Shown in pieces: positions 54,496 to 59,858 of a stretch of DNA of 64,000 nt. Where the stretch lies: NCBI RefSeq assembly GCF_004364285.1, contig NZ_SOBE01000001.1, positions 62,001 through 126,000 on the forward strand, in the 5' to 3' direction. The number at the start of each line of letters is the position of its first letter. Position 1 is the stretch's first letter. Made by a program: the position numbers and the translations under genes. The notes beneath the pieces were generated by a model, which worked only from the letters and a program-made list of their open reading frames with translations, ran no database searches and was not told the origin of the DNA. This DNA comes from Frigoribacterium sp. PhB116 (GTDB lineage: Bacteria > Actinomycetota > Actinomycetes > Actinomycetales > Microbacteriaceae).

Positions 54496-56115
54496 ATGTC
54501 CGTGCGCCTCGACCCACCCGCAGCAGCGACCCGCGAGGGCATGACGACCCGCACCTCCTCGGGCTGGGCCGCGGTCGCCGGCGTCGTCTCGGCGGCGGCC
54601 TTCCTCGCCTCGGCCGAGCTCGCCGCCGTCGTGACCGGCCCCAGCGGCAGCCCGCTCTACGCGGTCGGCTCCGCGGTGATCGACCTGGCACCTCCCGTGG
54701 CCAAGGACACGATGGTCGCCCTCTTCGGCACCGGCGACAAGGTCGCGCTCTTCACCCTCATGGGCGTGCTGCTCGCCGTCATCACGGCGGGCGCGGGCAT
54801 CGCCGAGCTCCGTCGGCCCCCGGCAGGCAAGGTCGTCTTCGGCCTCGGGGGAGTGCTCGCGATGATCGCCGTGCTCACCCGAGCCGACTCGTCGAGCATC
54901 AACGGGGTGCCCACCGCGGTGGGCACGCTCGTCGCCCTGCTCCTCCTCACGGCGCTCGTCCGGAGGCTCTCCCGCTGGCAGGCGACCACCCGCACCGGCT
55001 GGTCCGAGGCCTCGGTGCCCGCGCCGCCCCTCCGCGGCCCCGGCCTCGAGCGCCGCAGCTTCGTGCTCCTCGCGGGCATCGCCGGCGTGGCCTCGGTCGT
55101 CGTCGGCACCGGTGCCCGTGCCTGGAACGCGACGCGGGCGAACGTGACGCAGCTGCGCGCGGCCCTGCGCCTGCCGGCCGCGGAGAACGTCGAGGAATCG
55201 GTGCCCGCGGGCGCCTCGCTCGACGTCGACGGCCTCACGTCGTACATCACGCCGAACGACGAGTTCTACCGGATCGACACCGCCCTGCGCGTGCCCGGGA
55301 TCGACCCGGCGGACTGGTCGCTGCGCATCCACGGCCTGGTCGACGAGGAGGTGGTGCTCACGTTCGACGACGTGCTCGCCCTGCCGCTCGTCGAGCACAC
55401 GGCCACCCTCAGCTGCGTCTCGAACGAGGTCGGCGGCACGCTGATCGGCACCGCGCTCTGGCTCGGCTACCCGCTCCGCGACCTGCTCGCACGGGCCCGC
55501 CCGCAAGCCGGCGCCGACATGGTGCTCTCCCGCAGCATCGACGGCTTCACCGCGGGCACGCCGCTCGAGGTGCTGCAGGACGATGACACGGAGGCGTTGC
55601 TCGCGGTCGGCATGAACGGCCAGCCCCTGCCCCAGGAGCACGGGTTCCCCGCCCGCCTCGTCGTGCCCGGCCTCTTCGGCTACGTCTCGGCGACGAAGTG
55701 GGTGACCGAGCTCGAGGTGACGCGCTTCGCCGACGCCGAGGGCTACTGGACCCCTCGCGGCTGGGACGCCCTCGGCCCGGTCAAGCTCGAGTCCCGCATC
55801 GACGTGCCCGCCGCCGGGACGACCGTCGACGCCGGCACGGTCGCCGTCGCCGGGGTGGCCTGGCACCCGCACACCGGCGTCTCGCGCGTCGAGGTCCAGG
55901 TCGACGGAGGCGCGTGGGACGAGGCCGAGCTGGCGGAGTCGATCTCGCCCGACACCTGGGTGCAGTGGGTCTACCGCTGGTCGGCGTCGTCCGGCGGGCA
56001 CACCCTGCGCGTGCGGGCGACGAGCGCCGACGGGACCGTCCAGTCCGAGACGGAGCTGCCGCCCGCGCCCAACGGCGCAGAGGGCTGGGACGAGCACGCG
56101 GTGTCGGTGCGCTGA
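54496..56115 (+). CDS. Membrane-anchored molybdopterin-dependent oxidoreductase
   Basis: 539 aa, ATG with TAGCCT 6 nt upstream (leaderless-like). Four membrane helices (about 25-155), then a RRSFVLLAG-type helix (about 190) and a sulfite oxidase/YedY-like molybdopterin domain (about 250-425): RIDTALRVPGIDP, TLSCVSNEVGG (the Cys that ligates molybdenum) and PARLVVPGLFGYVSATKW. A C-terminal Ig-like dimerisation domain follows (about 440-539). The catalytic part probably faces outward. The electron partner and substrate are unknown. Confidence 0.88.
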   Translation: MSVRLDPPAAATREGMTTRTSSGWAAVAGVVSAAAFLASAELAAVVTGPSGSPLYAVGSAVIDLAPPVAKDTMVALFGTGDKVALFTLMGVLLAVITAGAGIAELRRPPAGKVVFGLGGVLAMIAVLTRADSSSINGVPTAVGTLVALLLLTALVRRLSRWQATTRTGWSEASVPAPPLRGPGLERRSFVLLAGIAGVASVVVGTGARAWNATRANVTQLRAALRLPAAENVEESVPAGASLDVDGLTSYITPNDEFYRIDTALRVPGIDPADWSLRIHGLVDEEVVLTFDDVLALPLVEHTATLSCVSNEVGGTLIGTALWLGYPLRDLLARARPQAGADMVLSRSIDGFTAGTPLEVLQDDDTEALLAVGMNGQPLPQEHGFPARLVVPGLFGYVSATKWVTELEVTRFADAEGYWTPRGWDALGPVKLESRIDVPAAGTTVDAGTVAVAGVAWHPHTGVSRVEVQVDGGAWDEAELAESISPDTWVQWVYRWSASSGGHTLRVRATSADGTVQSETELPPAPNGAEGWDEHAVSVR

Positions 56116-56185: not shown

Positions 56186-58324
56186 TCAGCCCACGACGCC
56201 CAGCGAGAACGGCAGCACGGCCGACGCCCCCGCCCGGCGCAGCTCGCGCCCGGCGGTCGTCATCGTCCAGCGGCTGTCGACGAGGTCGTCGACGAGCAGC
56301 ACGGGCCCGGAGACCTCGGCCAGCGCGGCGGCCAGCTCGGGGCCGACCTCGACCGCCTGCCAGACGTCGGCGAGCCGGTAGACGCTGTTGCCGCCTCCTC
56401 TGCTGCCTCGACCGGCTGACGGTCGAGTCGGGGTGAGCGAGCCGAGCAGGGGAAGGCGCCCCACGGTGCTGATCGCCTCGACGAGTGAGCCGACGAGCTG
56501 CGGCCGTGCCGTCGACGGCATCGCCACGACGCCGACCGGGCGCTCGGCCCACGGCCACTCCTTGAGCACGCGGACCACCCCGTCGAGCAGCGCCTTGGTG
56601 AGCGGTGCGTCCTCGGCACCGGCCGCGAAGACCTGGCGCAGCGTCGTGCCCCAGCCGAGGTCGGTGAGGCGGGCCAGGGCGCGGCCGGTCTCGACGCGCT
56701 CGCCTTCGGCGATCTTGCCCTTCGCGGGCACGCCGGCCCGGTCGGCGCCCGTCGGCCACTGGGCCCGGGGCTCGATCTCGACGCCCACCCGGTCGAGCGA
56801 GGTCGAGGCCGACGCAGCGGCCTCGCCGCCGATCTCTCTCGGGTACCAGGCGCCGGCGCAGATGTCGCACCGGCCGCAGGGTGCCGCGGCCGGGTCGTCG
56901 AGGTCGAGCTGGAGCATCTGCATCCGGCAGGTCGTCGCGCGCTCGTAGGCGATCATCGACTGCTGCTCGGCGACCCGTGCCTCGCCGATGCGCCCGTAGC
57001 GCTCGGCGTCATAGACCCAGGGCCGACCCGTGCTGACCCAGCCGCCCTGCACCCGCGACACCGCGCCGTCGACGTCGAGCACCTTGAGCATCAGCTCGAG
57101 CGGCGAGCGTTTGACGTCGACCCGGGCCTCAAGGGCCGGCGTCGACAGGGGCGTGTCGCCGAGCTCGGCGAGGACAGCCGACGCGCGGGCCTCCGACGGC
57201 ATCGAGGCGGTCGCGAAGTACTGCCAGATCTCGGCGTCCTCCGTGCCCGGCAGCAGCAGCACGTCGGCGTTGTCGGTCGCGCGCCCCGCGCGGCCGATCT
57301 GCTGGTAGTAGGCGACGGGCGACGACGGCGCCCCGAGGTGCACCACGAAGCCGAGGTCGGGCTTGTCGAAGCCCATGCCGAGGGCGCTCGTGGCGACGAG
57401 CGCCTTGAGCTCGTTGCGCTTGAGGTGGCCCTCGAGCGCCTCGCGTTCTTCGTTGTCGGTGCGGCCCGAGTACGAGCGCACCGCGTGGCCGGCCTCACGG
57501 AGCAGGCGGGCCGTGTCGTCGGCCGCCGAGACGGTGAGCGTGTAGATGATGCCGCTGCCCGGCAGGTCGTCGAGGTGGCTGAGCAGCCAGCCGAGCCGGT
57601 CACGCGAGGTGGGCAGCGTCAGCACGCCGAGCCGCAGGGAGGCGCGGGCCAGCGAGCCGCGGATCGTCAGCACCTGGTCGTCCGGCCCCGCCGTCAGCTG
57701 TTCCTCGACGTCGGCGACGACCCGCTCGTTCGCGGTCGCCGTCGTGGCCAGCACGGGCACCGTCGTCGGCAGGGTGCGGATCAGGTCGGCGAGCCGCCGG
57801 TAGTCGGGCCGGAAGTCGTGGCCCCAATCGCTGATGCAGTGCGCCTCGTCGACGACGAGCATGCCGAGGCGTGCCACCAGCACGGGCAGCTGCTCGTCGC
57901 GGAACCGCGGGTTGTTGAGGCGCTCGGGCGAGACGAGCAGCACGTCGACCTCGTCGGCCGCGAGGGCCTGCTGCACGTCGGACCACTCGTGCGCGTTCGC
58001 CGAGTTGACCGCGACCGCCCGCACGCCCGCACGACTCGCCGCGGCCACCTGGTCGCGCATCAGGGCGAGGAGCGGCGAGACCAGCAGGGTCGGCCCGCCG
58101 CCTCGGCGTCGCAGCAGCAGGGTGGCGATGAAGTAGACGGCCGACTTGCCCCAGCCGGTGCGCTGCACGACGAGGGCGCGACGACGGTCGGCGACGAGCG
58201 CGCGGATCGCCTCGAGCTGGCCGTCGTGGAACACGGCGTCGTCGCGGCCCGTCAGGGCCCGCAGCAGCTCGAGCGCCTCGGCGTCGATGTCGGTCGTGGT
58301 GCTGGCCGTGCTGCTCGTCGTCAT
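56186..58324 (-). CDS. recQ: RecQ-family DNA helicase with C-terminal phosphoribosyltransferase-like domain
   Basis: 712 aa, ATG start. Helicase motifs: QRTGWGKSA (a Walker A with Trp instead of the usual Gly), SPLLALMRDQV, VVDEAHCISDWGHDFRPDYRRL, ATTATAN, and QIGRAGRATDN. The zinc-binding region has Cys in ATTCRMQM and PCGRCDIC (about 470-495). Instead of a usual HRDC domain the C-terminus (about 570-712) ends with VLLVDDLVDSRWTMTTAG, the PRPP-binding signature of phosphoribosyltransferases (ComF-like). It unwinds DNA in repair; the added domain's role is unknown. Leaderless-like CAGCAT lies 6 nt upstream. Confidence 0.88.
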   Translation of the reverse strand: MTTSSTASTTTDIDAEALELLRALTGRDDAVFHDGQLEAIRALVADRRRALVVQRTGWGKSAVYFIATLLLRRRGGGPTLLVSPLLALMRDQVAAASRAGVRAVAVNSANAHEWSDVQQALAADEVDVLLVSPERLNNPRFRDEQLPVLVARLGMLVVDEAHCISDWGHDFRPDYRRLADLIRTLPTTVPVLATTATANERVVADVEEQLTAGPDDQVLTIRGSLARASLRLGVLTLPTSRDRLGWLLSHLDDLPGSGIIYTLTVSAADDTARLLREAGHAVRSYSGRTDNEEREALEGHLKRNELKALVATSALGMGFDKPDLGFVVHLGAPSSPVAYYQQIGRAGRATDNADVLLLPGTEDAEIWQYFATASMPSEARASAVLAELGDTPLSTPALEARVDVKRSPLELMLKVLDVDGAVSRVQGGWVSTGRPWVYDAERYGRIGEARVAEQQSMIAYERATTCRMQMLQLDLDDPAAAPCGRCDICAGAWYPREIGGEAAASASTSLDRVGVEIEPRAQWPTGADRAGVPAKGKIAEGERVETGRALARLTDLGWGTTLRQVFAAGAEDAPLTKALLDGVVRVLKEWPWAERPVGVVAMPSTARPQLVGSLVEAISTVGRLPLLGSLTPTRPSAGRGSRGGGNSVYRLADVWQAVEVGPELAAALAEVSGPVLLVDDLVDSRWTMTTAGRELRRAGASAVLPFSLGVVG

Positions 58325-58349
58325 CCGGCCATGCTGTCACGGGCCACCG

Positions 58350-59858
58350 TCAGCGAGGCCCGGTGCCGACTCCCGCGCCCACGGCCTGCAGCAGGGCCCA
58401 CAGCTCGGCCCGCCCGGCGAAGCCATCGAGCGGCAGCCCCAGCACGGACTCGACCTTGGCGACTCGTGCGCGGAGGCTGTGGCGGTGCAGGCCGAGTCGG
58501 CGGGCGGCCGGGTCCCAGACGCCGTTGTGCTCGAGCCACGTCCGGCAGCAGGCCAGCAGCTCGTCGCCGTCGGGCAGGGCTGCCACGGGGGCGAGGCGGG
58601 ACGACGCGAGCTCGGCGGCCCCCTCCGACCAGAGCGCGGCCACGAGGCCGCCGGCCGCGAGGCTCGCCCAGGTGACCACCGCCTCCTCGGCGGACGACGT
58701 CGCGACGGCGAGGGCGCGCTCGGCCTGTGCCACGGCACCGGCGAGGTGGTCGAGGTCGGTGACGTCCGAGACGCCGATCCGCAGGCCGTGGGCGGCGGCG
58801 AGCGCTGGCAGATCGACGGCGCTCTCGGCGGCGAGCACGGCGATCCTCCCGTCGACGAGCGCGACGAAGACGTCGGGCCGACCGGCGGCGAGTCGCTCGA
58901 CGGCCTCGGTCGCGTGGTCGGGCGAGTCCCGAGGAGGCGCGGCGAGGGCCACGACGACCGGCCCCGCGGCGATGCCCACCCCGACCGACCTCGTGATGGA
59001 CCGTGCCACCTCGACCTGCCCTGCCACCAGCAGCGACCACACCTGCCGCCAGAGCTCGCGCTGCCCGCGCAGCCGGGCGACGTCGCGCTCGAGGGTGACC
59101 TCAGCGAGGGCGACCACGCTGGTGAGGACGGCGCGGGCGGCCGTGTCGAGCTCGGCGGGGGTGCGGACGGTGAGGACGCCGCGGAGGCCGTCCCGCCGGC
59201 CGAGGGTCTGCAGCGACACCACGGCCCCGGGGACGGTCACGGTGCTGCCGGCCCGGGCCCCGCGGCGCAGGAGCCGTGCGACCTCGGCCTCGACCTGCCC
59301 CTGGTCGACCTGCCCGTGGTCGGCCGCGGCATCCGTCCCGTGCAGCACCACCGACCCGCCGAGCTGCTCGCCGAGCACCCGCAGCACGGCGTCGAGCCCG
59401 CCGTCGCCGATGGCCGCGACGGAGACGGCGCGCTGGGCCCGCAGCGTCCAGCGGTCGCGGTCGCGCGCCTCCTCGGCCAGCTGGTCGGCCGCCCAGCGGG
59501 CGACGGCGATGAAGGGGGTGCGCCAGGGGACCTCGACGACGGGCACCCCGAGGGCGGAGGCGGCGAGCACGAGCTCGACGGGCGTGTCGGGCCGGTGCAC
59601 GCCGGCGCCGAACCCGAGGGCGACCACGCCGGCGCCGACGACCCGCTCGACCCAGGCGTCGTAGTCGTCCTGCGTCGCGTCGGCCCGGAACTGGCTGCCG
59701 GTCGTGAGCAGCATGGTCGAGGCGGCGACGAAGGGCGACGGGTCGACCAGGTCCGAGCTGTGCACCCACGAGAGCGGCTCGTCGGTGCGCGTCGTCGGGT
59801 CGAGGAGGCGCAGGCCGAGGGGAGCCTGGCGGACGAGGGCTCGGACGGTGGGGCGCAC
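58350..59858 (-). CDS. PucR family transcriptional regulator
   Basis: 502 aa. GTG start at 59858 with TAGGTT 6 nt upstream (leaderless-like). N-terminal PucR-type ligand domain (about 1-120), a GGDEF-like CdaR middle domain (about 280-400) and a C-terminal helix-turn-helix (about 435-495: WDPAARRLGLHRHSLRARVAKVE). It is divergent from gabT-gabD, and members often regulate amine, purine or GABA catabolism; likely the local regulator. A perfect palindrome (59874-59898) overlaps its own promoter. Confidence 0.85.
   Translation of the reverse strand: MRPTVRALVRQAPLGLRLLDPTTRTDEPLSWVHSSDLVDPSPFVAASTMLLTTGSQFRADATQDDYDAWVERVVGAGVVALGFGAGVHRPDTPVELVLAASALGVPVVEVPWRTPFIAVARWAADQLAEEARDRDRWTLRAQRAVSVAAIGDGGLDAVLRVLGEQLGGSVVLHGTDAAADHGQVDQGQVEAEVARLLRRGARAGSTVTVPGAVVSLQTLGRRDGLRGVLTVRTPAELDTAARAVLTSVVALAEVTLERDVARLRGQRELWRQVWSLLVAGQVEVARSITRSVGVGIAAGPVVVALAAPPRDSPDHATEAVERLAAGRPDVFVALVDGRIAVLAAESAVDLPALAAAHGLRIGVSDVTDLDHLAGAVAQAERALAVATSSAEEAVVTWASLAAGGLVAALWSEGAAELASSRLAPVAALPDGDELLACCRTWLEHNGVWDPAARRLGLHRHSLRARVAKVESVLGLPLDGFAGRAELWALLQAVGAGVGTGPR

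Follow-up and report, generated by a model that had tools for sequence, protein, structure and literature searches.

The window, by which we mean the whole 64,000-nucleotide stretch of Frigoribacterium sp. PhB116 DNA analyzed here, encodes on its reverse strand a RecQ-like helicase of 712 aa, with an ATG start and the bounds given in the initial annotation. The features of this ORF are as follows.

56186..58324, reverse strand: rqlH, RecQ-like helicase with a ComF-like phosphoribosyltransferase (PRTase) tail; 712 aa, with the stop codon counted in the bounds
57695..58237, reverse strand: helicase lobe 1 (residues 30-210), DEAD family; Pfam DEAD at residues 35-205, E 3.6e-24, and predicted model
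58142..58159, reverse strand: Walker A TGWGKS (residues 56-61); W58 in 219/226 and K60 in 224/226 aligned rows
57839..57850, reverse strand: Walker B DEAH (residues 159-162); D159, E160 and H162 in 226/226 rows
57278..57562, reverse strand: helicase lobe 2 (residues 255-349); Pfam Helicase_C, E 6.5e-17
57026..57238, reverse strand: RqlH-type linker (residues 363-433); helices and two short strands in the model's secondary structure, winged-helix-like
56858..57007, reverse strand: predicted zinc module (residues 440-489) with cysteines 466, 483, 486 and 489; Pfam RecQ_Zn_bind, conserved Cys
56189..56827, reverse strand: ComF-like PRTase tail (residues 500-712); predicted fold and profile match to ComF
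56258..56290, reverse strand: PRPP-type loop DDLVDSRWTMT (residues 679-689); D680 equals E. coli D663 by alignment

The loop lies within VLLVDDLVDSRWTMTTAG (residues 675-692), and the longer Walker A string TGWGKSA occupies residues 56-62. Upstream is a gene for a PucR-type regulator (58350-59858, reverse strand), whose stop is separated from the rqlH start by 25 bases (58325-58349); with so short a gap the two genes may be co-transcribed. Downstream, a molybdopterin oxidoreductase gene (54496-56115, forward strand) is convergent to rqlH.

Both helicase lobes of the protein score above their Pfam cut-offs, as does NCBIfam TIGR00614, the model for RecQ-family helicases; the RecQ equivalog models fall far under theirs. 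A full-length AlphaFold2 model built from 38 sequences (mean pLDDT 86.2, pTM 0.80) has RecQ catalytic cores as its best PDB matches. Together these bear out the RecQ-like motor first proposed for this gene. The marks of a canonical RecQ, a C-terminal HRDC domain and a TGGGKS-type Walker A, are missing. No HRDC match was found in the protein in Pfam at E<=1 and the tail is predicted to fold as a PRTase, in agreement with the initial statement that the usual HRDC is absent. The same genome encodes a separate, HRDC-bearing RecQ (C4:46567-48417) and a third RecQ-like helicase (C2:264291-265739).

We aligned 226 full-length RqlH rows, one of which (L008) repeats the protein encoded in the window. 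R345 and R348 are found in 226/226 rows, as are the Walker B residues D159, E160 and H162, and the four cysteines of the zinc module are retained in 223-224 of 226. The Walker A had been called unusual; its sequence was read correctly, but the tryptophan that sets it apart is shared by nearly the whole alignment (W58, 219/226). Together with the loop tryptophan W686, present in 226/226 rows, it is a mark of the family and not an oddity of this protein.

The order of linker and four-cysteine module is present in the model, with C466, C483, C486 and C489 in the sequence as predicted zinc ligands. RecQ_Zn_bind matches the window protein at E 0.0028, which is under the Pfam cut-off, and 35/38 relatives have a match to it with E<=0.01. 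We infer from the model that the linker preceding this module may be a winged helix. Pfam matches of that kind are weak: DprA_WH at E 0.013 in the window protein and, among the 38 relatives, HTH_IclR in three and DprA_WH in one.

This architecture is already known from the RqlH/PsyrT proteins of M. smegmatis, P. syringae and E. coli. RqlH was reportedly defined in M. smegmatis (MSMEG_5935) by Ordonez, Unciuleac and Shuman in 2012. The M. smegmatis protein resembles that of the window in its RecQ-like ATPase, linker, tetracysteine module, lack of HRDC, ComF-like tail and lack of an RqlI; it differs in belonging to another genus and in that its biochemistry is demonstrated, whereas for the window protein it would follow by analogy. 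Its motor functions without the tail, and PsyrT and RqlH are orthologues, as stated in the part of the E. coli RqlH study drawn on here (PMC4670107). The PADLOC PsyrT model, PDLC03928, fits the window protein along its whole length (residues 15-708 on positions 6-681 of 689, E 4.6e-209); unlike the PsyrTA system of Pseudomonas syringae, the window genome has no PsyrA. The fused tail is thus a trait of a described family and nothing out of the ordinary.

The tail modeled alone by AlphaFold2 (residues 495-712; pLDDT 91.9, pTM 0.87) is predicted to adopt a class I PRTase fold, so that the PRTase-like tail first proposed is present in the predicted structure; the initial note had named a prediction lacking this fold as what would refute it, and that outcome did not occur. 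With E<=0.001 as the limit, Foldseek gave five entries, namely H. pylori ComF, human HGPRT, the T. thermophilus enzymes APRT2 and APRT, and one titled '1144'. In VIA-align the best match of the tail model is H. pylori ComF (7p0h; Z 12.5, rmsd 5.5 A, 175 residues), and two of three ShosT structures (8zvc, 8zvd, 8zvb) follow: ShosT with PRPP-Mg (8zvc) at Z 10.5 (rmsd 3.8 A, 172 residues) and ShosT with phosphate at Z 10.3; the third entry is at Z 8.5. The first salvage PRTase, aligned over 130 residues, is at Z 9.8. This is within 1 of the 10.5 of ShosT, which is therefore tied in Z with the salvage enzymes, and ShosT and ComF cover more of the tail in the alignment than the salvage enzymes do. 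PurR is also among the matches (7rmw, Z 8.7; 1p4a, Z 8.5).

Profile comparisons agree with the fold. A profile of 103 RqlH tails matched one of 24 ComF proteins with a probability of 96% and E 4.8e-9 over 120 columns (window residues 577-711); a 38-row tail set gave 85% and E 7e-7 in the same comparison, and a helicase-lobe control gave E 0.9. A profile of 15 tails matched the PRPP loop of PRPP synthetases among PDB sequences at E 0.0012. Searches with the single sequence count against the assignment or are silent: the tail matched a Pfam PRTase at E 0.11, under the cut-off, and phmmer against PDB sequences gave one sub-significant match, again a PRPP synthetase (E 0.29). With the NCBIfam comF model the RqlH tails of four relatives were matched, all under the cut-off, and the window tail was not among the two matches listed for its own genome; over the 40 genomes searched nothing exceeds that cut-off, true ComF copies included. 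A separate ComF (L298) is also encoded in the window genome. The short PADLOC model named DpdF, PDLC02866, matches the tail (56186-56815, reverse strand) at E 8.5e-47, as against E 2.2e-23 for PsyrT. That model was probably built on the C-terminal parts of RqlH proteins, and solo RqlH may be wrongly labeled DpdF by it.

The PRPP-type signature that had been placed near the C-terminus is found there, in the string of residues 675-692, and the acidic pair of its loop, D679 and D680, is intact. The tail is ComF-like in the profile and fold matches given above; the loop itself departs from the textbook ComF form and lacks the usual TTG: the window has DDxxDSRWTxT where H. pylori ComFC has DDIITTGTTL. 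Position 685, a glycine in ComF, is R, G, Q, K, C, T, S or L across the 226 rows and A in the E. coli copy L321. We considered Arg685 as a mark of harmless solo tails and rejected it, since the RqlI-linked Nostoc protein (L133) has R and solo Streptomyces-type rows have G; residue 685 is variable across the alignment and does not mark activity.

Two of the structural matches bear on what the tail may bind. ComFC is the best match by structure and is reached by profile as well, but it is a separate small protein with a zinc finger of its own, whereas the window tail is fused to a helicase. As described in the part of the H. pylori study drawn on here, ComFC has PRPP and AMP among its ligands, with no demonstrated reaction, and its T165A variant loses nucleotide binding and retains binding of ssDNA (PMC9005727). 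ShosT aligns with the tail in its PRPP-Mg complex, and its partner ShosA is DprA-like, as is RqlI. The review passage available to us describes ShosT as having PRTase and pyrophosphatase activity and names no helicase for it, and its likeness to the window tail is structural and not by sequence. By its fold, its loop and the ShosT and ComFC complexes, the tail of the window protein is putatively PRPP- or nucleotide-binding.

The gene is constant within the genus and patchy outside it. It occurs in 16/16 genus genomes examined, that of the window included, at 85-100% identity (98-85% in the other 15). Beyond the genus, matches at E<=1e-160 were found in 8/21 other genomes of the family and 18/23 of the order, three of them (G044, G052, G055) partial or in pieces, and a draw from the phylum gave matches at E<=1e-156 in 64/346 genomes. 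No phage relative of the tail was detected by tblastn in 50,697 phage records, no PHROGs family matched it, and one scan of viral contigs with an Acinetobacter protein revealed no relative. Among the neighbors of 137 solo loci the largest cluster comprised 52/137 and looked spurious, crude ORF calls in high-GC DNA being mostly spurious antisense.

We found no gene for RqlI or PsyrA beside rqlH or elsewhere in the window genome. The sole relative of RqlI there is one ordinary DprA, which shares 29% identity with it over residues 91-304 and is encoded some 710 kb away from rqlH. Because the genome holds only this distant DprA and no RqlI, the window rqlH is solo. In this it is typical, as 99.6% of Gram-positive carriers of rqlH are solo according to the portion of PMC4670107 used here. 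We regard the gene, with a probability of roughly 0.8, as an ordinary solo rqlH, consisting of a RecQ-type motor, an RqlH linker, a four-Cys module and a ComF/ShosT-like class I PRTase tail that would bind PRPP or nucleotides. It is one more solo rqlH from an actinobacterium.

What the tail of such a protein might do is suggested by E. coli RqlH. In the extraintestinal strain F11, RqlH is toxic without its partner RqlI and the toxicity needs the PRTase tail; the D663A change abolishes growth inhibition, SOS induction and filamentation, with a modest loss of viable count remaining, and helicase-dead RqlH behaves in a complicated way. All RqlH toxicity data are from E. coli RqlH, an RqlI-bearing system, as far as the part of the study at hand reports (PMC4670107). 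The E. coli protein has the architecture of the window protein, with K49, D148 and D663 at the positions of window K60, D159 and D680; residues were matched through the chromosomal copy L321, in which the numbers K49, D148 and D663 are those of the F11 mutants. It differs in that rqlI, absent from the window genome, overlaps the end of rqlH, and in having DSAWT for DSRWT in the loop.

By analogy with M. smegmatis RqlH, the first ~500 residues of the window protein would act as a 3'-5' ssDNA translocase and helicase independent of the tail. The tail would, as in E. coli RqlH and ShosT, use D679/D680 and an S-x-W-T-x-T phosphate loop to bind PRPP or a nucleoside monophosphate, and without restraint it could upset nucleotide metabolism and put the DNA under stress. 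For the solo window protein the most likely restraint on the tail would be the protein's own helicase domain, coupling tail activity to the state of the motor on DNA.

We asked how the acidic pair fares with and without RqlI. The 226 rows comprise 30 that are RqlI-linked, 188 that are solo, and eight with less than 900 bases of downstream flank. DD is found at 679-680 in 30/30 RqlI-linked rows, including one, L131, with a broken RqlI. The solo rows divide into 167 with DD, 16 in which D680 is replaced and five in which D679 alone is replaced; in the eight short-flank rows DD is present in seven and D680 lost in one. Outside the alignment, the RqlI-linked L321, L202 and L203 all have DD, and motif reading of five more loci, each solo or unclassified, shows D680 lost in L323, L335 and L344 and DD present in L327 and L332. 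In the window's order and its neighbors D680 is present in 111/111 rows and D679 in 110. A row-wise Fisher test of pocket loss against absence of RqlI, on rows that are related and with L086 still counted as RqlI-linked, gave p 0.05; L086 was later reclassed as solo, its DprA-like gene lying 2.2 kb away.

The association was also placed on a tree of the helicase region only, with 103 representatives. One branch with 91% SH-aLRT support (not starred) unites 65 rows, the window included and none RqlI-linked. Parsimony infers about six losses of the acidic pair, two of them in clades, one with four members (D679V) and one with six, and the others in L039, L159, L183 and L199; the change in L039 is a mild one, D679E, and four of the six losses replace D680. 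No loss is inferred on an RqlI-linked branch, L199 counting as unclassified for having less than 900 bases of downstream flank. With solo branches accounting for 0.657 of the DD-state length of the tree, six of six losses on solo branches has a probability of about 0.08, and five of five, leaving out L199, of 0.12. An independent-pairs test on this helicase-only tree had no power (p 1).

Rates of change point the same way. The ratio of tail to helicase terminal branch length has a median of 1.28 in RqlI-linked rows (n=25), 1.59 in solo rows with DD (n=57) and 1.85 in rows that have lost the pair (n=14); against the RqlI-linked rows p was 0.012 for solo DD and 0.0012 for loss, and the third p of the three-group comparison was 0.026, all on terminal branches that are not fully independent. 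For nine solo rows nested among RqlI-linked ones p was 0.035 against all 25 and 0.085 against the 21 that are actinobacterial. These comparisons suggest that solo tails evolve faster relative to their motor and that pocket loss is associated with absence of RqlI. The association leaves the window's own clade, solo with its pocket intact, unexplained.

The pattern of D680 loss among solo RqlH, absent from RqlI-linked ones, appears to be what is new here, the rest being already known. The passages of the RqlH literature covered here yielded no description of a natural loss of D663, and a literature search for work joining RecQ, DprA and a phosphoribosyltransferase domain yielded none. The E. coli authors weighed less toxic alleles in bacteria without RqlI and saw no major sequence differences, in the part of their report used here (PMC4670107). 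The changes found here are of single residues in a minority of rows.

A tentative interpretation, and one we would not press, is that RqlI-less lineages have repeatedly made a D663A-type change, with A, T, L, V, G or P in place of D680, and have kept the tail and its invariant Trp for a second role within the helicase; solo clades that keep the pocket, the window's among them, would then carry a live PRPP-dependent effector restrained only by its own helicase domain. If so, it would speak to the open question raised by the E. coli authors of how RqlH is tolerated without RqlI, given that it is toxic to E. coli without RqlI and yet most Gram-positive carriers have none (PMC4670107, in the portion cited above). 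Loss of D680 in some solo lineages against an intact pocket in others offers a side-by-side test of natural alleles.

The same losses admit another reading, that the solo tail is a relic or scaffold of PRTase fold that binds DNA, the motor or another protein, with PRPP chemistry dispensable. Replacement of the acidic pair in 21/188 solo rows means that the tail's enzyme role is not fully essential, and the tail and W686 are retained throughout those rows; the tail-independent motor of M. smegmatis (PMC4670107) and the ssDNA binding of ComFC T165A (PMC9005727), as reported in the parts of those papers used above, are what a scaffold would lead one to expect. Against this, the near-invariance of D679 and D680 in the window's order and neighbors would be expected if the pocket is in use, and fold and pocket loop are predicted to be intact in the window protein; we consider a relic possible but doubtful for this gene.

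Alternatively, the tail might catalyze nothing and instead sense PRPP or nucleotides, adjusting the helicase to the supply of nucleotides in the way that PurR of B. subtilis adjusts its DNA binding. The two PurR structures among the matches of the tail model are consistent with such a role, as is the binding of PRPP and AMP by ComFC with no reaction shown in the part of PMC9005727 consulted. An enzyme or effector role is favored in some members by the D663-dependent toxicity in E. coli and by the PRTase and pyrophosphatase activity given for ShosT in the review passage, and a pure sensor seems to us a conjecture of limited likelihood. A working PsyrTA/RqlHI pair for toxin-antitoxin function or phage defence, formed by this gene with the housekeeping DprA as antitoxin in trans, is improbable: the genome's one DprA has its 29% identity to RqlI over the middle part and RqlI-linked relatives do lie inside BREX-1 or type I restriction operons, but RqlI is absent beside the gene and from the genome, the adjacent genes encode a molybdopterin oxidoreductase and a PucR-type regulator and are not defence genes, and presence in 16/16 genus genomes is unlike a mobile defence module.

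Several contexts of relatives were noted along with the solo rqlH described here. On an Acinetobacter plasmid (NZ_CP090068.1; L130, 5004-8533) an rqlH-rqlI pair lies within a BREX-1 operon, with pglX on one side and, on the other, a DUF262 gene followed by pglZ. On an E. coli plasmid (L132, 3995-7512) and an E. coli chromosome (L135, 5956-9473) the pair lies between the S and R genes of a type I restriction operon. It was found at >=99% identity in 53/5426 E. coli genomes. In E. coli AVS0935 (NZ_CP124405.1, ~3043220-3047991) the match to rqlH-rqlI contains an ISEc52-type element, and the annotation gives the tail as a separate ComF family protein. The broken RqlI of L131 (7033-8504), on pSymB of S. 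meliloti, is split over two frames and unannotated, through either a true break or a sequencing error. One genome (G103, contig C10) carries two rqlH copies about 20 kb apart (L196 and L197), each followed by an RqlI-like gene. On a Tsukamurella plasmid (L137, 3947-6055) the acidic pair is eroded, with VVDESGTGW in the loop, and the gene adjoins yajC-secD-secF, apt and a RelA/SpoT gene. A plasmid of Halanaeroarchaeum (L134, 3974-6055) encodes a full-length haloarchaeal RqlH, without adjacent RqlI, whose loop reads DDTVGSRWSFT.
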